Source: Bacteroidales bacterium (GTDB taxonomy: Bacteria > Bacteroidota > Bacteroidia > Bacteroidales > UBA10428). From it: a DNA stretch of 38,452 nucleotides. Positions 1,106 through 38,452 of the stretch are shown here, piece by piece; positions within the stretch are counted from its first letter, which is position 1, and every line of letters begins with the position of its first letter. Location of the stretch: positions 1-38,452 of the forward strand of contig JAFGPL010000220.1 of assembly GCA_016936215.1 (NCBI GenBank), read 5' to 3'. The position numbers and the translations under genes are program-made. The notes beneath the pieces are model-generated. The model made no database searches, had not been told where the DNA came from, and saw only the letters and a program-made list of their open reading frames with translations.

Positions 1106-3457
1106 TTAAAATTTAAAATTATAGGTGAACGAAGGAATAATCGGAAACAGGTATAGCTTTACAACATCTACCCCGTCTGGTACATTTTCATCGCCATTGT
1201 CGTTCATTTCCCTTCTGAGTCCCCTGTCCCTGAAGTAGATGGCAAAAGCATTATGCCGGTTGTATGCATTGTATACCGACACGTTCAGGTTGCTTTCAAA
1301 ACCGAATAGTTTGAAATTATATGTTGCTGAAAGATCAAGCCTGTGATAACTTGTTTTGGGGATACGTACTGCATTTCTGTCGGTATAGTAGGGAATCCAT
1401 ACATTGGCATAATAGAAGCCCCCCTTTGGCACAGTTACAGGTATTGCAGAAGAGTATACCCAGTTGGCCGAAAAGAGGAACCTCTTATTAAGTTCATACG
1501 AAAGCACAACCGAAACATTATGGGGCTTATCAAAAGGGGCAGGGTATTTTTTGCCCCCGTTTATCTCGGGCACATCCCTGATAACCCTTGACAGGGTATA
1601 ACTTACCCATCCGTTGAGTTTACCTGACTGTTTCTTTACCATCAATTCCAGTCCATAGGCTTCTGCGTCGCCTATCCTAAGTTCACCTTCAAGGTGAGGG
1701 TTAGGGACAAGAAAGGCATGGTCTTTAAAATCAATAATGTTGTCAAATTTTTTATAATATGCCTCAACGGAGGTTTCGAATGTATTGTTCCTGAAATTTC
1801 TGAAATAACCGGCTGCAACCTGGTCAACCCTCTGGGGTTTTACATTAGGGCTGCTCATAAACCAGAGGTCGAGCGGGAAGGTAGCTGTTGAGTTCGAAGC
1901 CAGGTGCATATACTGGAACATACGGTTGTAACCTGCTTTTACCGAGCTTTTTTCATTTATGGTGTATCTTATGCCAAATCGAGGTTCCAGCCCTGAATAA
2001 CTGTTGAAAATATCCCTGGCCCGATAATAGATAGTATCTGTAACTTCATAGTTTTCATTGTATTTGTTGATGGTGGCTTTACCTATATTATTAAACCATG
2101 TATAGCGCAACCCGTAATCTATGCCGAAACGCTTGCCGAGGGTCTGCTCATTGCCTATAAACACAGAACTTTCAATACCATAAGCATATGGATACTTGAT
2201 ATTGCTGATGAAACTTTCCGCCAATGACTCCGAAACACCGGGTTTTAAAGTATGATAAATACTTTGGGCCCCGAAAGTGATTTTGTTGGACAGGTTATGG
2301 TAATAGGTATAATCTGCCTGTACGCTGTAATCAATGATGTGAGAGGTCCATTTGAATCCATCGCTGCCTTCCGGTACGCCCAGGCTATAACTGAAATCGC
2401 TGTAAAGCAGGGTTACGTTTGAAAACAGTTTGCCGTTATAAATATGGTTCCATCTTAAGGTGCCGGTAGCATTGCCGTAATCCATCTGGAAGAAATTGCC
2501 AAACTTGTTTACATCGCGGCCAAAATAGCCCGACAGGTAAACCCTGTCATTTTCTCCGGCTATCCAGTTGAGTTTTGCATTCAGGTCGTAAAAGTAGAGT
2601 TTGCTTTTTTTCGCAATGCTGTCTGTGGCAAACGGCAGCATCAGGTCGGCATAGGTTCTTCTTCCTGAAACGATGAACGACAGTTTGTTTTTAACAATAG
2701 GGCCTTCAAGCGTAAGCCGGCTTGAGATAAGCCCGATTCCACCCTCGCCGGAAAACTTCTGGTTGTTGCCCTCCCTCATCCTCACATCAAGCACAGATGA
2801 TAATCTTCCGCCATACTGGGCAGGAATGGCACCCTTATAAAGTTCTACGTTTTTAATGGCATCGCTGTTGAAAACAGAGAAAAAGCCAAAGAGGTGTGCA
2901 GGATTGTATACTGTGGCTTCATCAAGCAATACCAGGTTCTGGTCGGCATTGCCGCCCCGTACATAGAAACCGCTTGAACCTTCCACACTGGTCTGCACCC
3001 CGGGCAGCAACTGGATGGATTTAATCACATCTGTTTCGCCCATCAGTACAGGAATTTTCTTTATGGTCTTTGCCTGTATCTGAACCGAGCCCATCCGGGT
3101 TTCGGTAATATTCTGGTCGGGCCTTCTGGCAGTGATGGTTACCTCGTCCAATTGGGTGACTTCGGATGTAATCTTTACATTCAGACGGTTATTGGCTGCC
3201 AGGTTTAAAGGTTTTGTAAGAATATCGTAACCAATAGAAGAATAGACAATTTCATGCGGGCCTTCAGGCAGTGTAAGGGAATAAAAGCCATATTCGTTGG
3301 TAACAGTACCGGCATCTTTTACTGAGTTATAAACATTTACACCGATAAGCAGTTCGCCGTTCTCATCGGTCACCGTGCCGCTGATTGTAAATTTTTTCTG
3401 TGCATACGAGGTAGCCAATGTTGACAGAATTAAGGTTAACATTATAAAATATTTCAT
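1106..3457 (-). CDS. TonB-dependent receptor with carboxypeptidase-regulatory-like N-terminal domain
   Basis: A 783-residue outer-membrane transporter. A signal peptide (to about residue 19, ending SYAQ) is followed by a CarboxypepD_reg-like beta domain (about 23-105, with GTVTDENGELLIGVNVYN). The plug domain follows (about 120-225, with YVRGGNADQNLVLLDEA near 165) and then a long beta-barrel ending in the aromatic residue F typical of outer-membrane barrels (YNFKF). Such receptors import large or scarce ligands using TonB energy; this one has no SusD neighbour and is paired instead with the downstream DUF4249 lipoprotein. Its length is normal for the short-barrel group of these receptors. 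The ligand cannot be inferred. A -7 box candidate lies at 3511-3518. Confidence 0.92.
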   Translation of the reverse strand: MKYFIMLTLILSTLATSYAQKKFTISGTVTDENGELLIGVNVYNSVKDAGTVTNEYGFYSLTLPEGPHEIVYSSIGYDILTKPLNLAANNRLNVKITSEVTQLDEVTITARRPDQNITETRMGSVQIQAKTIKKIPVLMGETDVIKSIQLLPGVQTSVEGSSGFYVRGGNADQNLVLLDEATVYNPAHLFGFFSVFNSDAIKNVELYKGAIPAQYGGRLSSVLDVRMREGNNQKFSGEGGIGLISSRLTLEGPIVKNKLSFIVSGRRTYADLMLPFATDSIAKKSKLYFYDLNAKLNWIAGENDRVYLSGYFGRDVNKFGNFFQMDYGNATGTLRWNHIYNGKLFSNVTLLYSDFSYSLGVPEGSDGFKWTSHIIDYSVQADYTYYHNLSNKITFGAQSIYHTLKPGVSESLAESFISNIKYPYAYGIESSVFIGNEQTLGKRFGIDYGLRYTWFNNIGKATINKYNENYEVTDTIYYRARDIFNSYSGLEPRFGIRYTINEKSSVKAGYNRMFQYMHLASNSTATFPLDLWFMSSPNVKPQRVDQVAAGYFRNFRNNTFETSVEAYYKKFDNIIDFKDHAFLVPNPHLEGELRIGDAEAYGLELMVKKQSGKLNGWVSYTLSRVIRDVPEINGGKKYPAPFDKPHNVSVVLSYELNKRFLFSANWVYSSAIPVTVPKGGFYYANVWIPYYTDRNAVRIPKTSYHRLDLSATYNFKLFGFESNLNVSVYNAYNRHNAFAIYFRDRGLRREMNDNGDENVPDGVDVVKLYLFPIIPSFTYNFKF

Positions 3458-3510
3458 CTCATCAAACTTTTAAATAGTTAAATAATAACATCTGGTTGAA
3501 ATTGTTGGTT

Positions 3511-3518
3511 CAAAAATA
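3511..3518 (-). promoter_or_regulatory. Candidate -7 box for the TonB receptor operon
   Basis: On the minus strand these bases read TATTTTTG, a full match to the Bacteroidota -7 consensus TAnnTTTG, 54 bases upstream of the receptor start. The nearest upstream TTTG is about 26 bases away, more than the usual 19-21, so the -33 element is doubtful. Confidence 0.4.
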
Positions 3519-3601
3519 ATCCCTAAAAATTGCCGTGGTTAGTACAAATCGGCAAACACATCTATTATGTCGGTTAAAATATGCAGGAGCGGTTTGAAAT
3601 A

Positions 3602-3633
3602 ACGGCCGGCAATTTAAAACAAGCGCCGGCCGT
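3602..3633 (-). terminator. GC-rich hairpin after the small outer-membrane protein gene
   Basis: ACGGCCGGC (3602-3610) and GCCGGCCGT (3625-3633) form a perfect nine-base stem with a 14-base loop, 28 bases past the stop of the gene at 3661-4296. No run of T follows on the minus strand, so it is not a canonical intrinsic terminator; it may end or stabilise the transcript. Confidence 0.4.
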
Positions 3634-3660
3634 GAGAATATAATGGTATTGAATCGGAGG

Positions 3661-7449: not shown

Positions 7450-7997
7450 GACATGCTTTGTTTTAATAATTCTTTCATTTTCTGTTTAGCCCTCGAAAAC
7501 TGCGATTTCGAGGTTGATTCCGTAATGCCCATTATCTGGGCAATTTCAGTATGATCGTACCCTTCGAGAAGGTAGAGCGAGAAAATTACCCTGTACCCTT
7601 CGGGAAGTTTTTCCATGGCTTTCATCACATCATTTACTTTCAGGCTGATTACTTCAAAATCGTCTTCTTCATTATCCGCACTGTTGTCGGGGATGTTTTC
7701 GGTAAGCACCAGTTCTGCCTTTTTTCTCTTGAGTTCATTGATACATTTGTTTATTACAATTCTTTTTATCCACGATCCGAACGACGATTCATACCTGAAA
7801 GTATCAAGCTTTGTAAATGCCTCGGTAAAAGACTCCTGCAGCATATCTTCAGCCTCCTCGCGGTTGTTCATCATTCTGTAACTAATGTTGAACATAGCTT
7901 TTGAGTAAAGCTGGTAAAGCTGATACTGCGCCTTAGGGTTACCAGCCTTGCTGAGTTCAATTATTTCGCGGTGTATGTCCTGATATGCTGTTGTCAA
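7446..7997 (-). CDS. ECF-type (sigma-70 family) RNA polymerase sigma factor
   Basis: A 183-residue sigma factor. Region 2 is at about 25-95 (YRMMNNREEAEDMLQESF, then SFGSWIKRIVINKCINELKR) and region 4 at about 125-180 (LPEGYRVIFSLYLLEGYDHT, then EIAQIMGITESTSKSQFSRA helix-turn-helix). It should direct RNA polymerase to a small regulon, probably including its own operon and the surface proteins downstream. The start is TTG: an in-frame TAA lies two codons upstream, so no longer version is possible. It overlaps the anti-sigma-like gene by four bases. A transposon-like element ends about 150 bases upstream of the start. Confidence 0.93.
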   Translation of the reverse strand: MTTAYQDIHREIIELSKAGNPKAQYQLYQLYSKAMFNISYRMMNNREEAEDMLQESFTEAFTKLDTFRYESSFGSWIKRIVINKCINELKRKKAELVLTENIPDNSADNEEDDFEVISLKVNDVMKAMEKLPEGYRVIFSLYLLEGYDHTEIAQIMGITESTSKSQFSRAKQKMKELLKQSMS

Positions 7998-8149
7998 CGC
8001 TTACCGATATAATCCAGTTAGTAAAACCTAAATATCGTAATTCTAAACCAATTACCCTAATGACAAAAAGAAAATTGAAGGGTTGCATCTTTTTCTGTAT
8101 AAATTTTATCTGCAGGGGGAAAATTTATTTCTTAAATCCGCAATTTAGT

Positions 8150-8158
8150 ATTTGTTTA
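8150..8158. repeat. Left target-site duplication (ATTTGTTTA)
   Basis: ATTTGTTTA directly abuts the left terminal inverted repeat of the element at 8159-8742 and is repeated exactly at 8743-8751, directly abutting the right terminus. A perfect nine-base direct repeat in this position is the footprint of transposition. Confidence 0.8.
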
Positions 8159-8218
8159 CACTACTGTCCGACTAAAATATTTTTCATATTATAAATCCCC
8201 TGTAATAAAAAGGTTTAT

Positions 8219-8406
8219 TGATATTACGCCGTCTACGGGCCCCAAAATATTACCCAAATTATTCTATAAATATTTCGCCTCTCACGAGGCTGAAAACAAG
8301 TACCGTAAGTACAAAATATTTGTAGAACAGGCAATTGTATAATTATTTCAAAGTACCGCAGGTACGAAATATAAACAACATAGAATTTAACCGGACAATA
8401 GTGATT
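8219..8406. repeat. Direct repeat module A
   Basis: 188 bases nearly identical to 8556-8745. In the central ~130 bases only about three positions differ. It contains small hairpins: GCCTC/GAGGC (8277-8290), a GTAC...GTAC palindrome, and a GTACCGCAGGTAC palindrome with a three-base loop. It ends in a copy of the terminal inverted repeat. Confidence 0.85.
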
Positions 8407-31020: not shown

Positions 31021-31860
31021 TTACCACAAATGGCTTTTTGATTTCAGGATGCAGTTTATCATCCTTAAGTATTGATCTGATGAAAAGAAGCACTTGTTGC
31101 AGGCATCAGGGGCAAAAGACATATAATTATAGACGGTAGGCAGGTAATAGTCATCGTTGCTGTCTTTTTCTGTTGAGCTATACTGGCAGTCGAAAGAAAC
31201 TTTGCCCGTGAGGTTTGGATCGGCAGGTGTATCACAACACAGATCACCAGCCGTGGCGCAATTTGAGCCATTCACCAGTTCTTTCGCAAAGCCTGTTTCG
31301 TGTGTGTGGTAAAGATTGAAAAAATGGCCAAACTGTTCTATAAGTATAGATGCGCTGATGCAGGTTTTGACAAGAAATATTACATCCTTGTTTTCAGAAG
31401 GGTAATAAGTATAGGCGCATACAGGCTGACTGGCAGCATCATACAATTCACTTACCAGGTATAGGTTAATGCTATGTGATGTTTGAAACTGTGCTGTAAG
31501 TTCGGTTTCATTTCCTCCTTTTTGTACTTCGTCGAAGTGGTAGTTATCTATTATTTGAGGCGATGAAAGATCAAAGCTAAGTCCTATTTGCTCAAAGGCA
31601 TTATTAAGCGCTGTAAAAGCTGTACTGAGGGCAGTTAAGTCAACACCGGTTTCACCTTCTTCATTTTTCACAAAATAAAGGCTTACAGCAAGTTTACGGT
31701 CTAACCTTATAAGTGTGTTAACGCTGTCTGTAAATCCCAGTTCATAGTCACGTTGCTTGTCGGTAAGTTCTGTGCCGCAAATGTTGGTCTGTGAATACCC
31801 ACAAATGGAAATTAAGCTTAAAAATAGTGCGATTGCTGCGTTTTTTTTGTACCTGTACAT
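31021..31860 (-). CDS. Secreted M43-like (pappalysin-type) protein with altered active site
   Basis: A 279-residue exported protein (signal peptide to about residue 22, CGYSQ). The C-terminal half looks like an M43 metalloprotease: ATAGDLCCDTPADPN, a Met-turn-like YNYMSF, and several cysteines that may form disulfides. The zinc motif HExxHxxGxxH should lie at 175-185 but reads EQFGHFFNLYH. The first His and the catalytic Glu are replaced by Glu175 and Gln176 and the Gly by Asn182, while His179 and His185 remain. Proteolysis is therefore unlikely. It follows the OmpA/PD40 gene by 20 bases and may be a binding or structural part of the surface system. Confidence 0.7.
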   Translation of the reverse strand: MYRYKKNAAIALFLSLISICGYSQTNICGTELTDKQRDYELGFTDSVNTLIRLDRKLAVSLYFVKNEEGETGVDLTALSTAFTALNNAFEQIGLSFDLSSPQIIDNYHFDEVQKGGNETELTAQFQTSHSINLYLVSELYDAASQPVCAYTYYPSENKDVIFLVKTCISASILIEQFGHFFNLYHTHETGFAKELVNGSNCATAGDLCCDTPADPNLTGKVSFDCQYSSTEKDSNDDYYLPTVYNYMSFAPDACNKCFFSSDQYLRMINCILKSKSHLW

Positions 31861-31880: not shown

Positions 31881-34001
31881 TTAATTATCATCAGCAAAGT
31901 CTTCATCTTCTTCTTCTTCGCCCAAAGTACCTATTATCCTGAATTCTGTTCTCCTGTTTTTTTCACGCCCCTCGGGATTATCGGTACCATCGGGGTTTTT
32001 ATTTGGTGCTATCGGAAATTCGGCGCCATATCCTTTTGCGACAAGCCGCTCGGGCGAAATACCTTTGCTTATGAGGTAGGCAATTACACCGTTTGCCCTG
32101 TCCTGCGAGAGTTTCGTGTTGTACTCATGATCGCCGATGCTATCGGTATGTGCGCCTATTTCAACAATAAATTCAGGGGCTTCCTTCAGCATTACCAGCA
32201 AGGTGGTGTCAAGTACATTTTTTGCCCTTTGTGACAACTCTGCACTGTTGAATTCATAGTAAATGTTTTCAAGTACAACGGGTTTGTCTGTGAGTACGTT
32301 TACCCAGATCGGGGGCATTTCTATAGAATCGGAGAAGTTGAAAAATTCTGTTGACAGGTGTAATTCACTGTTGAAATATTGAAATCCCTGCATCTTGAAC
32401 TGATAATTTTGTTCGGGGATAAGATGGAAATAGAATTTTCCGTCTTCACCGGTTGAATAATTATCAAGAAAAACATACTCTTTGGTTTCTTTATCCTGGA
32501 CATATAGTGCGATGGTGGCATCATTCAAAGGTTTGATTGATGCATCGGGGTTCATAAAATCGAAGTTGGAAAGGTCTTTTTTCCTTCCGTACTTATCCTG
32601 TTCAAATGGATAGATGGTAGCATACACCACAATGTTGATGAACTCGTTCCAGCGGTAATAGTAAATATCATCGCAGCAGGTTTCGTTATTAAAACTATTT
32701 CCTCCCGGCCTGTTCGAGACAAAGAACCCGTCTTCACCAGACCGGCTTACGGTAAAATAAAGATCATCGTAACTCGAATTGAGCGGATAACCAATATTCT
32801 TAATATCAGACCATTTTCTTCTTTCCCCGAATGCACTGAAGATGTCGAGGCCGCCCAATCCGGGTAGTCCGGTTGAGCTGAAAAAGAGATTTCTTGTACG
32901 GGGATCGTAGAAAGGGGTCATTTCATCCCCCAGCGTGTTAATGCGGCTTCCGAGGTTACGCACCTTGCTGTAAAGGTTTCTTTTCGGGTCCCATACAGTG
33001 TACCAGATATCAAGGCCTCCACGGCCTTCGGGCCTGTCTGAAACAAAATAGATTATATCCCTGTTGGTTTTGGCGGTTCTTCCCAGTGCCGGTTGCGTGG
33101 CTGTATAATTAGGATCGTTAATGGTTGCAGGAAGTTTTTCAGGTTTCTGCCACTGGTTATTAATTTTATGACTGACATACAATGCACAGATTGGCTTACC
33201 CTGCCAGTTTTTTGCGCAACGTGTAAAATAAAAACGGTTGCCATCTCTCGACAAAGCCCCGTTACCGGTTTCCACACCGGGCAGGTTAAACGGTCCTTCA
33301 AGCAGTTGTCCGCCAATCCAGTCCATACCCTGTTTTTTTGCAGTGTAAAATTGTCTTACCGGCCGCTCGGTATCTTCGTTTTCCTGGGTAAAATATACCA
33401 GTGAATCTACACGCAGCGAGGCATAAATAAACATGGTATCGCTGAAAGGAATGGGTGAAAACTCTATATGAGGCCCGTTGACTGATGAGTTGATGTTTTC
33501 GATGGAAACATTCAGCGGCGACTGAATAATTTTTTTTGCCGAATCGCAACCTTCGGTTTCCATTCTCACCAGTTTGCTGTATGTTCTTTCTTCTTTATTG
33601 CCCCTGAGGCTCCTTCTGTATTTGGTAAACTCATCAATAGCTTCATCATATTGTCCCATGGATTTTAGCATCTGTGCATGGTAAAACTGTGCATGGGGAT
33701 ACTTTTTGCCTGCTTTTTTGGCCAACAGTTGGTATAGTTCCGCAGCTTTTTCATAATTGCGGGCATTTCTGTGGAGTTCCGCAAGTGTATAATTGACTTC
33801 ATCATTGTTTGCCCTGAAAGTGCGGTATTTCTCGTAAAAAAATATCGCAGTGTAGATATCACCTGCCCTTGAAGCACTCTTACCATATTTTTTTAACTGA
33901 CCGGGGGTGAGTTCATCAATGTTAGCCAGTTGCGCGGTGGCAATGCCGGCTAAAAAAATGAACGTTGTTGTTAATATGACTTTTATTTTAAAATCTTTCA
34001 C
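31881..34001 (-). CDS. OmpA family protein with TPR and PD40 repeats (PorE-like)
   Basis: A 706-residue exported protein. A signal peptide (to about 23) is followed by TPR-like helices (about 30-135) and a WD40-like/PD40 propeller (about 170-440; repeats such as NGALSRDGNRFYFTRC and IYFVSDRPEGRGGLDIWYT). A carboxypeptidase-regulatory-like beta domain (about 460-560) precedes the C-terminal OmpA peptidoglycan-binding domain (about 580-695; EIGAHTDSIGDHEYNTKLSQ, then DRANGVIAYL). The same layout is known for PorE-type proteins linked to type IX secretion. It starts with GTG and overlaps the PorP/SprF gene by 14 bases, so translation is probably coupled. It likely anchors the outer-membrane partner to peptidoglycan. 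Confidence 0.9.
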   Translation of the reverse strand: MKDFKIKVILTTTFIFLAGIATAQLANIDELTPGQLKKYGKSASRAGDIYTAIFFYEKYRTFRANNDEVNYTLAELHRNARNYEKAAELYQLLAKKAGKKYPHAQFYHAQMLKSMGQYDEAIDEFTKYRRSLRGNKEERTYSKLVRMETEGCDSAKKIIQSPLNVSIENINSSVNGPHIEFSPIPFSDTMFIYASLRVDSLVYFTQENEDTERPVRQFYTAKKQGMDWIGGQLLEGPFNLPGVETGNGALSRDGNRFYFTRCAKNWQGKPICALYVSHKINNQWQKPEKLPATINDPNYTATQPALGRTAKTNRDIIYFVSDRPEGRGGLDIWYTVWDPKRNLYSKVRNLGSRINTLGDEMTPFYDPRTRNLFFSSTGLPGLGGLDIFSAFGERRKWSDIKNIGYPLNSSYDDLYFTVSRSGEDGFFVSNRPGGNSFNNETCCDDIYYYRWNEFINIVVYATIYPFEQDKYGRKKDLSNFDFMNPDASIKPLNDATIALYVQDKETKEYVFLDNYSTGEDGKFYFHLIPEQNYQFKMQGFQYFNSELHLSTEFFNFSDSIEMPPIWVNVLTDKPVVLENIYYEFNSAELSQRAKNVLDTTLLVMLKEAPEFIVEIGAHTDSIGDHEYNTKLSQDRANGVIAYLISKGISPERLVAKGYGAEFPIAPNKNPDGTDNPEGREKNRRTEFRIIGTLGEEEEDEDFADDN

Positions 34002-35022
34002 AGGGAATGGAATAACTGTTTAACACTGTGCTTATACTGCGGTAACCAAAGGAAATTTCAAATGCCCCCTGGTTGCCGGTTGCTTTTTTCAAACCTGAAA
34101 TATTATAATCATAGCAGATGGAAATGTCTATTCTGCCCACTGTAGCGCCCCCCGTTACTGAAATAGCATCGGGATTGTTTTGCAAACCGTTCCTGAAATA
34201 AACACCTGTAGATAACATTTTTACAGGCGAACGTTTGCCGAAGTTTTTGAAGCCGATGTCTGTACCCGCTACCATTGCATTGGCTGCCCGTCTTGTAATA
34301 TAAATTATTGACGGGAATACAAACAAATTGTCAGAAATATTGGCTTTTACCCTTCCATGAATGTTATATCGTATGGGAAGCCTCCCTTTTTCGTCGTTAT
34401 AGAACGATTCGTTTGGATAATTGATGTGTGACAGCGAAAAACCGGCTTCAGGTTCAAATTTATTAATGCTTGTTCGCCATAGCGCCCCAATGTTTATATC
34501 TAAATATCCTTTTTTTTCGGCAGGGTTATTTATACCAACATATATCCCTTCTTCTCTGCTATAGCCGGAAGGAAAACTGTAATTGCCTTTGCCATAAGCA
34601 CGGTATGCATAACCGGCCTGGATACCTGCCCTGAAAATGTTTTTACCGATAGATTTTTCATATGCTGCAGAAAGTAACAGCTCATTAAGCGATAGTTCTA
34701 TGGCGCCTGAATTGTCATTAATAAAATAAAGGCCACCGTTTATCTTATGTCCCTTCACAAAGAAGTTCATGTCGAAACTCATGGTAGCCGTAGTAAAGGG
34801 TTCCGAAATGGCCCTCCACTGGTCACGATATGTGCCAGTCAGTCGCCAGTTTCCTTCAAAATTTCCTGTATTCGCAGGGTTTAAAAAAAGCGGGGAGTTG
34901 TTGAAAAGGGTAAAATGAATATCCTGTGAAAAGGAATTACAAAAGAGGCCCATAAATAATATGAACAATTTTATGAACCTGAAAATGATACTTGCAGCGC
35001 GATGTTTATGGGTTGATTTCAT
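33988..35022 (-). CDS. PorP/SprF family type IX secretion-associated membrane protein
   Basis: A 344-residue outer-membrane beta-barrel of the PorP/SprF family. The signal peptide ends near residue 33 (CNSFSQ). The mature start DIHFTLFNNSPLFLNPANTG, followed by WRLTGTYRDQWRAI, is the family signature. SprF-like proteins are needed for export or surface attachment of large adhesins such as SprB; PorP is a type IX component. Here it is divergent from a giant PKD-repeat protein, the likely client, and is coupled to an OmpA/PD40 gene. Core T9SS genes are not in the window. Confidence 0.92.
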   Translation of the reverse strand: MKSTHKHRAASIIFRFIKLFILFMGLFCNSFSQDIHFTLFNNSPLFLNPANTGNFEGNWRLTGTYRDQWRAISEPFTTATMSFDMNFFVKGHKINGGLYFINDNSGAIELSLNELLLSAAYEKSIGKNIFRAGIQAGYAYRAYGKGNYSFPSGYSREEGIYVGINNPAEKKGYLDINIGALWRTSINKFEPEAGFSLSHINYPNESFYNDEKGRLPIRYNIHGRVKANISDNLFVFPSIIYITRRAANAMVAGTDIGFKNFGKRSPVKMLSTGVYFRNGLQNNPDAISVTGGATVGRIDISICYDYNISGLKKATGNQGAFEISFGYRSISTVLNSYSIPCERF

Positions 35023-35170: not shown

Positions 35171-38100
35171 ATGAAACCTGTACAAAAAACCACTACGTTA
35201 ATAACTTTTTTATTCTTGTCAATAACTTATGGAAAATCGCAGGTAAATGCAGATTTTACCATGAATATCCAGGCGGGTTGCTCTCCGTTGAAAGTAAGTT
35301 TTATCAACCAAAGCACCCCTTCCGATTCACTTGATTACTTTTGGGACCTTGGTGTGCAACAGGGCACTTCAACGCTTGAAAACCCGCAGGCCACTTACAT
35401 CACCCCTGGTGCATACGATGTTAAATTAGTGGTACAGCATAACGAGCAGAAAGATTCTGTAACGAAAAAAATCATTGTTTATAAAAACCCCGTTGCAAAA
35501 TTTACCTCCGAACAAAAAGGGTGTGCCCCGTTCCAGGTTCAGTTTACCGACCAGAGCATTCAGGGCGACGGCCAGATTGTGAAATGGTACTGGGATTTCA
35601 GGACAGGTGATACACTCACAATCAGGAACCCGGTTAAAACATTTACCTTTCCGGGACAGTATGATATCTATTTTGAGGTAACCGATGTACATGGCTGTAA
35701 AGATTTTGTTGATTCTCTCAAATATATTGATGTGGTTAATCCCCCGGTTGCCAATTTCTCTTTATCACCGGTATCGGCCTGCCAGGTGCCGGCAACTTTC
35801 ACCTTTACCAACCAGTCGGTAACCCAGGGCAATGTTACCTACAACTGGGATTTCGGCGATGGCACACAATCACAGCAGTCCAATCCTTCAAAAACATACA
35901 ATACCTTTAATAACTACCCTGTTCGGCTTACTGTAACCAGCGACCACGGTTGCTTTGACGATACAGTGAAAACTGCTTATGTAAGCGAAGTAGTGGCCTC
36001 GGGTATCCTCAGGCAAAATGAGAAACCATTGTCGGCCAACGATACCATCTGCCTGGGCATCTTCGACTTTTCAAATGCATCAACCGGTACCGATAATGTG
36101 CTGTGGATTTTTGGCGATGGGACAACATCAACAAGCAAATTCGGGTTTCATGAGTTTACTACTGCAAAAACATACCAGGTGAAGCTTATTGCATCACCGG
36201 GTACTATATGCGCGGATACCTTTACATGGAACCTTATGGTTGAGGATATTAAAGCAAATTTTTCCATGAGCACCGAATATTCCTGCGCATCGCCGGTTGA
36301 AATCCAGTTCACCGACCTCTCGGTGAACGCTGTTAAATGGGAATGGTCTTTTTATGATGATACAAAGGCTTATACACAAAATACTTCGCATACCTTTGCA
36401 GTATCACCTCCCGTTGATCCTTACAAGATTAATGAAGGGGAACCTTTTGTTACTGCACTTACAGTGGAAAGTCCCGGAGGTTGTAAATCCACAACTTTAA
36501 AGACACTTGTCATTCACAAACCTACAGCGCAGTTTACCGTGGATAAAACCAGCGGTTGTGTTCCGTTAACGGTCAAATTTAAAGACAAAAGCATACCCGA
36601 CAAATCTGAAAATGTCATTACCAACTGGGAATGGATTTTTAGTGAAACACAAAAAATATCGGGTACAGTTGATTCGGCTGTTTTTACTTATAATAACGAT
36701 GGCTCGTTTCCTTCTAAGCTGGTAATTACAAATAACAAAGGTTGTACCGATACCTCTTATATAATAGATATAACCCCCGGGAAAAAACTATTGCCCGATT
36801 TTACCATATCTGTAGCTGATGTTTGTCAAAATGAAGAAATTATTTTTACAGACAATACGCCTGAATCGTCACTGATACAAAGATGGCATTACCAGGTGGA
36901 AGGGGTTGATATTGATGCCGAACCCGATGACCCCAATCCTGTCTGGAAGATGAAAGCTGATACCGGCTTACTTGATATGAAGCTTGAAGTAGAGTATAAC
37001 GGCTGTGTATCTGAAATTATTAAAACTGATTTTATACATAACAAAGGCCCCATGGCATCTTTCAGATATGATTTCGATTGCGCATCACCATTCGAATATT
37101 CGTTTACAAACCTTTCAAAAGGACAGGATTCTTACCAGTGGAAGTTTGGTGACGGGGCTGAAACCAATTCAGATTTGAACCCTGCCCATACCTATGCTTC
37201 AGAAGGTAATTACCTTGTTGAACTTAATGTCGTTAAGGGTACCTGTACAGATAAACACACAATTCTATTGCCGGTAAGGGAGCCAAAAGCCATTATTCAG
37301 GCAGAGGTAAATGCATGTGCCGGTCAGCCGCTTAAACTCACAGGAGCAGCATCTTACGGTCTTGTTGATTATTGTCACGAAAAATACCTTTGGGATTTTG
37401 GGGACAGTACTGCAGGTGTTTATACCATTCTGGATACTGTTTTCCATACTTATTCAAACAGGGGCAATTACACGGCCAAACTGAAGACCCGCTTTGATAA
37501 CGGCTGCGTTGATTCGGCCACTCACGACCTTACAGTGTTCAAACCATTTGTGGGTTTTGATCCCGATACGCTGCTGGGGTGTTCCCCGTTTATTGTAAAT
37601 TTCACAGATACATCCACAGCCAATGTCCATCCGCTTGAACAGTGGAACTGGTCGTTCGGCACAGGACAGGACAGTGTTTACTATAGCCAGGTACCGGTTA
37701 TCAGCCATTGGTTTAACAACCCGGGTGTGTACACTGTTTCTTTACAGGTAACCGACACATTAGGTTGCACAGGCGAAGCCTTTGCCACCATTTCAACCGC
37801 AAACCCCAATGCCGAATTCTTCGTGGTAAAACCCAATATCTGTCTTGGCGACGAAATTTCTATTAATTATTATCCGCAAAGCATTGACAGCATGATCTGG
37901 GATTTTGGAGACGGCCTTTTTTCAAGAAGCGATGCTCTGCCGGTGACGCACACCTATTTAGATTCGGGTCATTATTATGCAAACCTCACCATATGGCGAT
38001 ACGGGTGTAGTGCCAATTACACGCAGTTTACACCTACCATCGTTCAGTTGGCCGATGCACGTTTCCAGGTGTCCGATACTTTCTGGAACTGTTATCCGCA

Positions 38101-38452
38101 TGAAGTTGTTTTCAACCACAATATTCCGGGGCAGGCAATTGTTTCCGGAATCTGGAATTTTGGCTATGGGAACACCCCGCCCTCGGAATACAGCGCAGAA
38201 AAGGTTTTCACTTATCCCAAACCGGGTAATTATACTGCCAGCCTGAGCATCGTTACATCATTCGGGTGTATGGATACTGCTTTTAAGAATATAGAGATAA
38301 CCGGCCCTACAGGAGATTTTTCTATTTCAAGTAATTATGCCTGCAAAGGCGATGAAATTCGCTTTGATACCCTTTATACCAATGATGTTTTTGATTATGA
38401 ATGGGATATGGGCGACGGATCGGAATTCAAAAAAGGCAGTCCCGTTTTTCAT
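35171..38452 (+). CDS. Giant PKD-repeat surface protein (truncated by window end)
   Basis: An open frame of 1094 codons that continues past the window edge, so the C-terminus is unseen. A signal peptide (about 1-24, LFLSITYGKSQ) is followed by at least 13 tandem PKD-like domains of about 80-90 residues. Each starts with a pattern like ADFTMNIQAGCSPLKVSF and most contain the WxFGDG hallmark, as in YNWDFGDGTQS. PKD arrays in Bacteroidota form adhesins exported by type IX secretion, usually with a gliding-type (type B) sorting domain at the end. The divergent PorP/SprF and OmpA genes suggest a dedicated export/anchoring unit. Ligand unknown. Confidence 0.88.
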   Translation, partial: MKPVQKTTTLITFLFLSITYGKSQVNADFTMNIQAGCSPLKVSFINQSTPSDSLDYFWDLGVQQGTSTLENPQATYITPGAYDVKLVVQHNEQKDSVTKKIIVYKNPVAKFTSEQKGCAPFQVQFTDQSIQGDGQIVKWYWDFRTGDTLTIRNPVKTFTFPGQYDIYFEVTDVHGCKDFVDSLKYIDVVNPPVANFSLSPVSACQVPATFTFTNQSVTQGNVTYNWDFGDGTQSQQSNPSKTYNTFNNYPVRLTVTSDHGCFDDTVKTAYVSEVVASGILRQNEKPLSANDTICLGIFDFSNASTGTDNVLWIFGDGTTSTSKFGFHEFTTAKTYQVKLIASPGTICADTFTWNLMVEDIKANFSMSTEYSCASPVEIQFTDLSVNAVKWEWSFYDDTKAYTQNTSHTFAVSPPVDPYKINEGEPFVTALTVESPGGCKSTTLKTLVIHKPTAQFTVDKTSGCVPLTVKFKDKSIPDKSENVITNWEWIFSETQKISGTVDSAVFTYNNDGSFPSKLVITNNKGCTDTSYIIDITPGKKLLPDFTISVADVCQNEEIIFTDNTPESSLIQRWHYQVEGVDIDAEPDDPNPVWKMKADTGLLDMKLEVEYNGCVSEIIKTDFIHNKGPMASFRYDFDCASPFEYSFTNLSKGQDSYQWKFGDGAETNSDLNPAHTYASEGNYLVELNVVKGTCTDKHTILLPVREPKAIIQAEVNACAGQPLKLTGAASYGLVDYCHEKYLWDFGDSTAGVYTILDTVFHTYSNRGNYTAKLKTRFDNGCVDSATHDLTVFKPFVGFDPDTLLGCSPFIVNFTDTSTANVHPLEQWNWSFGTGQDSVYYSQVPVISHWFNNPGVYTVSLQVTDTLGCTGEAFATISTANPNAEFFVVKPNICLGDEISINYYPQSIDSMIWDFGDGLFSRSDALPVTHTYLDSGHYYANLTIWRYGCSANYTQFTPTIVQLADARFQVSDTFWNCYPHEVVFNHNIPGQAIVSGIWNFGYGNTPPSEYSAEKVFTYPKPGNYTASLSIVTSFGCMDTAFKNIEITGPTGDFSISSNYACKGDEIRFDTLYTNDVFDYEWDMGDGSEFKKGSPVFH

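Follow-up and report, generated by a model that had tools for sequence, protein, structure and literature searches.

A predicted pappalysin-fold pseudoprotease encoded beside a type B T9SS adhesin module in a Bacteroidales genome

The window, the whole 38,452-nucleotide stretch of DNA analyzed here (contig JAFGPL010000220.1 of a Bacteroidales bacterium), carries in order an FTHFS gene, an M43-like gene, a PorE-like gene, and a gene for a PorP/SprF-family carrier, followed on the opposite strand by a PKD-repeat adhesin gene (Table 1). The M43-like gene is the third of a porP-porE-M43 run that faces the adhesin gene. In the PorE-like protein, OmpA and PD40 models scored above their cutoffs and TPR models below theirs. 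The window copy of the adhesin is cut by the contig end; its 1460-aa orthologue in genome G001 (locus L024) combines ten PKD_4 stretches with a type B C-terminal domain (CTD; TIGR04131, 42.3 bits, cutoff 35; PF13585, 41.3 bits). The genome to which the window belongs encodes the SprA translocon (TIGR04189, 2588.4 bits, cutoff 200), with 16 PorP-family matches (13 above cutoff) and 15 type B CTD matches (11 above cutoff).

Table 1. Genes and sequence features of the adhesin module in the window
Feature	Position	Strand	Basis
M43/pappalysin-like pseudoprotease gene, 279 aa	31021..31860	-	ORF; Pfam M43; AlphaFold2 model; Z versus proulilysin
Degenerate zinc motif E175-Q-F-G-H179-F-F-N182-L-Y-H185	31306..31338	-	Read from sequence
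Met-turn N245-Y-M-S-F249	31114..31128	-	Tyrosine-switch position is Phe
CDTPADPN, residues 209-216	31213..31236	-	Read from sequence
C28 of C-G-T zymogen (cysteine-switch) motif in retained pro-segment	31777..31779	-	Sequence
Predicted Sec signal peptide, residues 1-24, SQ at its end	31789..31860	-	By-eye reading
PorE-like protein (TPR, PD40, OmpA), 706 aa	31881..34001	-	T9SS_PorE 290.8 bits, below cutoff of 600
PorP/SprF-family carrier, 344 aa, C-tail ..IPCERF	33988..35022	-	TIGR03519 152.1 bits, cutoff 90.55
PKD-repeat adhesin gene, runs off the window (= whole contig)	35171..38452	+	ORF; G001 orthologue

At the zinc site, the window protein reads EQFGHFFNLYH in place of the M43 motif HExxHxxGxxH, with the first zinc His and the catalytic Glu replaced by Glu-Gln (E175-Q) and the motif Gly by Asn (N182). 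Two of the three zinc-ligand histidines are kept (H179 and H185), as is the Met-turn methionine M247, which is invariant in all 23 aligned members of the family. The tyrosine-switch position (Met+2), defined by Tyr286 of mirolysin in PMC6949598, is Phe in the window protein, and the pro-segment sequence contains C28-G29, corresponding to the Cys-Gly zymogen motif of the same source. The disulfides of mirolysin are also described there, and C209 of CDTPADPN probably matches one of its structural disulfide cysteines, judging from motif spacing. Reading of the minus-strand ORF at 31021-31860 upheld what a preliminary description of this DNA had seen: EQ in place of HE, absence of both the first zinc ligand and the catalytic Glu, and retention of CDTPADPN (209-216) and the Met-turn (245-249). 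The span that it gave for the motif, 31320-31345, covers only about residues 172 to 180, the full motif lying at 31306-31338.

Peptidase_M43 (Pfam) matched the window protein with 24.4 bits (cutoff 23), while searches of NCBIfam with the protein and of the PDB with its single sequence gave no match at E <= 1. A PDB search with a family profile found ulilysin (5e-15), and the profile and the structure model both retrieved ulilysin, mirolysin, and PAPP-A. Ulilysin, mirolysin, and cytophagalysin belong to MEROPS family M43. Pfam M43 matched 16 of the 23 aligned members at E <= 0.01 and gave no match at all for the L074 protein. The AlphaFold2 model of the window protein, with 23 family sequences as input, had a mean pLDDT of 90.3, with low confidence over residues 1 to 30 (62-65). 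Its top Foldseek match was proulilysin 8cdb (E 1.5e-11), and VIA-align gave Z 21.0 against proulilysin (240 aligned, rmsd 3.1) and Z 20.2 against promirolysin. The best 18 PDB matches were pappalysins only (Z 18.0-21.0), and the next was a snake-venom metzincin (Z 13.5). The structure alignment to proulilysin starts by pairing model residue 23 with residue 18 and so includes the pro-segment; that to promirolysin starts with model residue 26 against residue 21. A model of the L063 protein, from a more decayed branch (TM...S), gave the same fold picture (pLDDT 87.3, Z 21.8). The predicted fold of the window protein is that of a pappalysin; an unrelated fold, on which the preliminary description would have given up its reading, is ruled out by the Foldseek and VIA-align matches. 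The window protein has the metzincin/pappalysin fold in its predicted model and has neither HExxHxxGxxH/D with the catalytic Glu nor a Met+2 Tyr; since this motif and the Tyr switch were looked for and found missing, we did not file it as an M43 peptidase. With a pappalysin fold predicted, the Glu base and Tyr switch gone, and the frame and residues kept across genomes, the earlier proposal of a pseudoprotease is strongly supported.

M43-like matches were present in 19 of 99 relatives' genomes, 59 of 393 genomes from the order, 86 of 395 from the class, and 14 of 395 from a phylum sample, counts that rest on differing queries and thresholds, include the window's own genome each time, and, beyond the relatives' set, take in many ordinary M43 proteins. 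Because the profiles used for searching came from the window protein's own family, the counts are not unbiased for M43 genes. The neighborhood comparison took in 34 of the 59 order-level and 41 of the 86 class-level genomes with a match.

EQ is common to four genomes (the window, L024, L025, and L026) whose proteins share 48-58% identity. Other HE-less states were RQ (L065), HQ (L041, L066, L067, L071-L073, L149, and L119), HL (L069 and L152), HT (L150), TQ/TM/TL (L027, L028, L030, L031, L063, L064, and L148), AG (L151), and EL (L074). The preliminary description held that orthologues with an intact HExxH would point to a recent mutation in the window. Such orthologues do occur in distant lineages at like loci (among them L032, L068, L070, L138, L143, and L145-L147), whereas EQ runs throughout the window's own four-genome family, and this sharing rules out a recent mutation or a sequencing error as its source. 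Four genomes hold two copies with differing motif states (L026/L027 in G022, L063/L066 in G281, L064/L067 in G349, and L147/L148 in G440), and in G440 one copy has HE (L147) and the other is dead (L148). Three module members, L116, L122, and L144, have HExxHxxGxxD and no switch Tyr, and their close relative L119 has HQ; they perhaps represent an intermediate state. At L033, positions 7779-8237 hold a 153-codon orphan remnant with TLHGKYFGLLN, an aberrant C terminus, and no module neighbors.

The placement of the M43-like gene after PorP/SprF and OmpA genes, noted from the window at the outset, is confirmed, and other orders of the class show it again. Homologues of the PKD, PorP, and PorE-like genes adjoin the M43-like gene at L024, L026, L027, L030-L032, L063-L066, and L068-L070, and class-level loci with the same three neighbors include L138, L143-L146, and L156; the neighborhoods of L025 and L028 are cut by contig ends. 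Gene order varies, with the M43-like gene lying between the PKD and PorP genes in L032, L068, and L070 and after the PorE-like gene in all four EQ genomes. At L028, the PorE-like gene (1475-3636) is split into two overlapping ORFs, and the neighboring M43-like frame is intact.

A row counted as linked if BLAST matched the window's PKD, PorP, or OmpA protein to something within 6 kb. Among 95 M43-like rows with a readable motif, 27 were without HE, of which 24 were linked and 3 unlinked, compared with 23 linked and 45 unlinked HE rows. HE was thus kept in 45 of 48 unlinked rows. In 34 of these 45, one flank or both ran to less than 3 kb, which made the test of their neighborhood only partial, and two others or the same (in L132 and L136) are truncated copies of proteins that overlapping loci also contribute to the count. 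The 24 linked HE-less rows comprised 16 with all three neighbors, 2 with PorP and OmpA, 1 with PKD and PorP, 4 with PKD only, and 1 with OmpA only. All three neighbors accompanied 15 of the 23 linked HE rows and PKD only another 4, and L080, a linked HE row of 430 aa whose sole module neighbor is OmpA at 26%, is doubtful. The three unlinked HE-less rows were L029 and L067, at contig ends, and the degraded orphan L033. A dead enzyme is no requirement of the module, since 23 HE rows were linked as well.

A class-level tree built from 54 domains, with the motif, Met-turn, and leader columns left out, needed 7 switches between HE and not-HE, of which 6 or more fell on well-supported (starred) branches. 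A previous tree, whose 39 rows were mostly order-level, needed 3, with as few as 1 forced by starred branches, and the count rose after class-level lineages were added. Both trees were built without the fragments L029, L033, and L078, and the second also without L098 (the same protein as L141) and short loci repeating longer ones. We infer the direction from HE to not-HE from the retention of HE in 45 of 48 unlinked rows and from the need of HE for catalysis. The joins at L074/L075 and L153/L155 are unsure because long branches meet there, and the module M43 proteins need not form one clade, as the seven outgroup M43 rows are interspersed with them in a tree whose root was not inferred. All 25 HE-less rows lack Tyr at Met+2, which 23 of 29 HE rows have, the six exceptions being L070, L127, L155, and the third-ligand-Asp rows L116, L122, and L144; because of these six, loss of the Tyr alone does not mark a dead enzyme. 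Over six independent pairs on starred branches, about 4.6 agreed in losing Tyr and HE together, 0 disagreed, and about 1.4 showed no difference (median P = 0.0625). Relatives of the window protein appear to have lost the catalytic residues several separate times, mostly beside adhesin-export genes.

By eye, the leader of the window protein resembles a Sec signal peptide without a lipobox, and Q24 is invariant in the 23 aligned members. No T9SS type A or type B CTD was found among the Pfam or NCBIfam matches of the 23 family members at E <= 0.01, so the M43-like protein would stay periplasmic unless a partner carries it, and the periplasm is a likelier location than the surface. The role in a surface complex hinted at in the preliminary description needs correction to this extent: the protein itself is more likely periplasmic, and the partner expected at the surface is the PKD adhesin encoded next door.

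We consider it probable, short of firmly established, that the window protein binds without cutting, as a subunit of an anchored T9SS type B adhesin complex, its partner being deduced from the module; the short flanks of many unlinked loci and the outgroup rows among the module proteins temper this reading slightly. The M43-like protein would be exported by Sec to the periplasm, where its substrate cleft and retained pro-segment would bind a segment of a module partner without cutting it. This partner would most likely be the PKD adhesin or its PorP/PorE-like anchor, and the bound protein would help to assemble or hold the adhesin complex, with the PKD adhesin presumably anchored through PorP and the PorE-like protein by analogy with published complexes. 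Lineages with HExxH would probably cut the same partner, and those without it would have kept binding only. A Sec-type leader, the absence of a T9SS signal among the matches of the 23 relatives, and a gene position after porP and the PorE-like gene would also suit a periplasmic chaperone or quality-control factor that serves PorP or the adhesin before export and is no stable part of the complex. We regard such a factor as unlikely, at perhaps the level of a serious minority view, and the present evidence does not separate transient from stable binding.

It is possible that the binding protein still holds a metal. E175, H179, H185, and C28 are present in all four EQ proteins, and among HE-less rows a possible ligand triad occurred in 10 of 11 with an N-terminal switch Cys and in 3 of 14 without one, the other 11 of these 14 having a broken triad. 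This association of the switch Cys with a possible triad suggests that the EQ clade may still bind metal through these four residues. An N-terminal Cys is no firm mark of a metal site, since 17 of 29 HE rows are without it (the one scored in HE row L120 is an artifact that lies in the leader). A further step would be a non-classical active hydrolase in which Glu175, His179, and His185 bind zinc, with Cys28 as the switch, and some other residue activates water. The same residue counts favor it, but both the general base and the Tyr switch are gone, R or T takes the place of the first ligand in relatives, many HE rows do without the switch Cys, and Glu-to-Ala mutants of cytophagalysin (PMC11674741) and mirolysin (PMC6949598) lost activity; we consider such an enzyme improbable.

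Other cysteines suggest alternative uses. Of 9 window-clade rows, 8 have both C28 and C208 and one (L065) has neither, and the HE protein L138 has C28 without C208; a C28-C208 disulfide is a lead for another use of C28 in the window clade. Residues 148 and 167 (window 31358-31419) are Cys together in 7 of 12 sequences compared and absent together in the other 5, which suggests a clade-specific disulfide. A close Cys pair follows the Met-turn in 32 of 47 module rows and in 0 of 23 unlinked rows, typically as C-x-C and as C-x-x-C in the window and L024. In this count, L067 was put with the module and L033 and L029 were left out, and the 23 unlinked rows were 7 outgroup and 16 longer order-level proteins, including L080, which is linked in the 95-row table. 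Every one of the 42 PorP rows from module loci (37 distinct) carries Cys at position -4, mostly in P-C-x-x-x, reminiscent of the C-tail Cys-X-Cys of SprF that bonds GldK, as reported in PMC12635249. As a marker of the module neighborhood alone, the PorP C-tail Cys was ruled out: it was also found in 5 of 14 other PorP genes of the window genome (14 of the 15 found were read, with Cys sought in the last 12 residues). A fuller version of the binding-subunit reading would make the M43-like protein an extra subunit of peptidoglycan-anchored type B adhesin complexes in which proteolysis was repeatedly discarded and the grip on the partner kept. Its further parts are that the window-clade protein may be a permanently locked zymogen and that the M43-like protein may be disulfide-tied to the complex; we hold the three together only tentatively, as an unlikely conjunction.

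Pseudoenzymes can regulate active relatives, according to a review (PMC11266112) that makes no mention of M43 in its main text, and the HE and dead copies in G440 could be such a couple. In the window genome (332 contigs), the window gene was the sole M43 match at E <= 0.01, with no second one to serve, which makes a role as decoy for, or regulator of, an active M43 enzyme of its own cell highly improbable.

Between the window and the other three EQ genomes, the M43-like gene had raw pN of 0.27-0.34 and pS of 0.76-0.85 (dS saturated), a pN similar to that of PorP (0.26-0.37) and faster than that of the PorE-like gene (0.14-0.19). Decayed copies do exist, such as the L033 orphan, as does the split PorE-like gene at L028, but a pseudogene on its way out is the least probable reading for the window gene, with 0 internal stops in four EQ genomes, pN well below pS, ten mature cysteines of the window protein all common to the four EQ proteins, and an unchanged position behind the PorE-like gene in each of them.

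The finding holds and reaches further than the preliminary description had it: a non-peptidase pappalysin homologue of a T9SS type B adhesin neighborhood, with recurrent loss of the catalytic residues. How type B T9SS adhesins are held on the cell is understood only in part. A recurring extra gene whose motif is that of an enzyme in certain lineages and that of a dead one elsewhere (about 7 changes on the class-level tree) amounts to a natural experiment; the mix of HE and HE-less forms points to a partner for which binding is a must and cutting is not, and matched HE and HE-less homologues are on offer for direct comparison. Among the matches listed for the open literature, outside which most subscription papers lie, none concerned a pappalysin pseudoprotease or placed an M43-like protein at a locus of the PorP/SprF or type B kind.

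The window protein shares with the lower pappalysins ulilysin, mirolysin, and cytophagalysin the pro-segment fold (Z 20-21), the Met-turn Met, the second and third zinc His, the C-G zymogen motif in the window clade, and likely disulfide positions. Unlike them, it has Glu-Gln for the first His and Glu, Asn for the motif Gly, and Phe for the switch Tyr. A PorE-PorP-PG1035 complex is demonstrated for P. gingivalis in PMC9143113. For F. johnsoniae, PMC12618676 describes five operons of the type B/SprF-like/PorE kind, and it proposes that type B substrates whose genes accompany SprF-like and PorE-like ones are statically anchored to the cell wall. Like the PG1035 and Fjoh_3950-3952 systems of these two species, the window module brings together a PorP/SprF carrier, a PorE-like putative anchor, and an adhesin whose G001 orthologue has a type B CTD; unlike them, it has an added M43-like gene. 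No word starting with "metallo" occurs in the main texts of PMC9143113, PMC12618676, and PMC12635249, and neither M43 nor pappalysin occurs in the main text of PMC11266112. As in the inactive metallopeptidase homologues covered by that review, the peptidase fold has outlived the catalytic residues; unlike in those homologues, the M43-like loss recurs in one kind of gene neighborhood.
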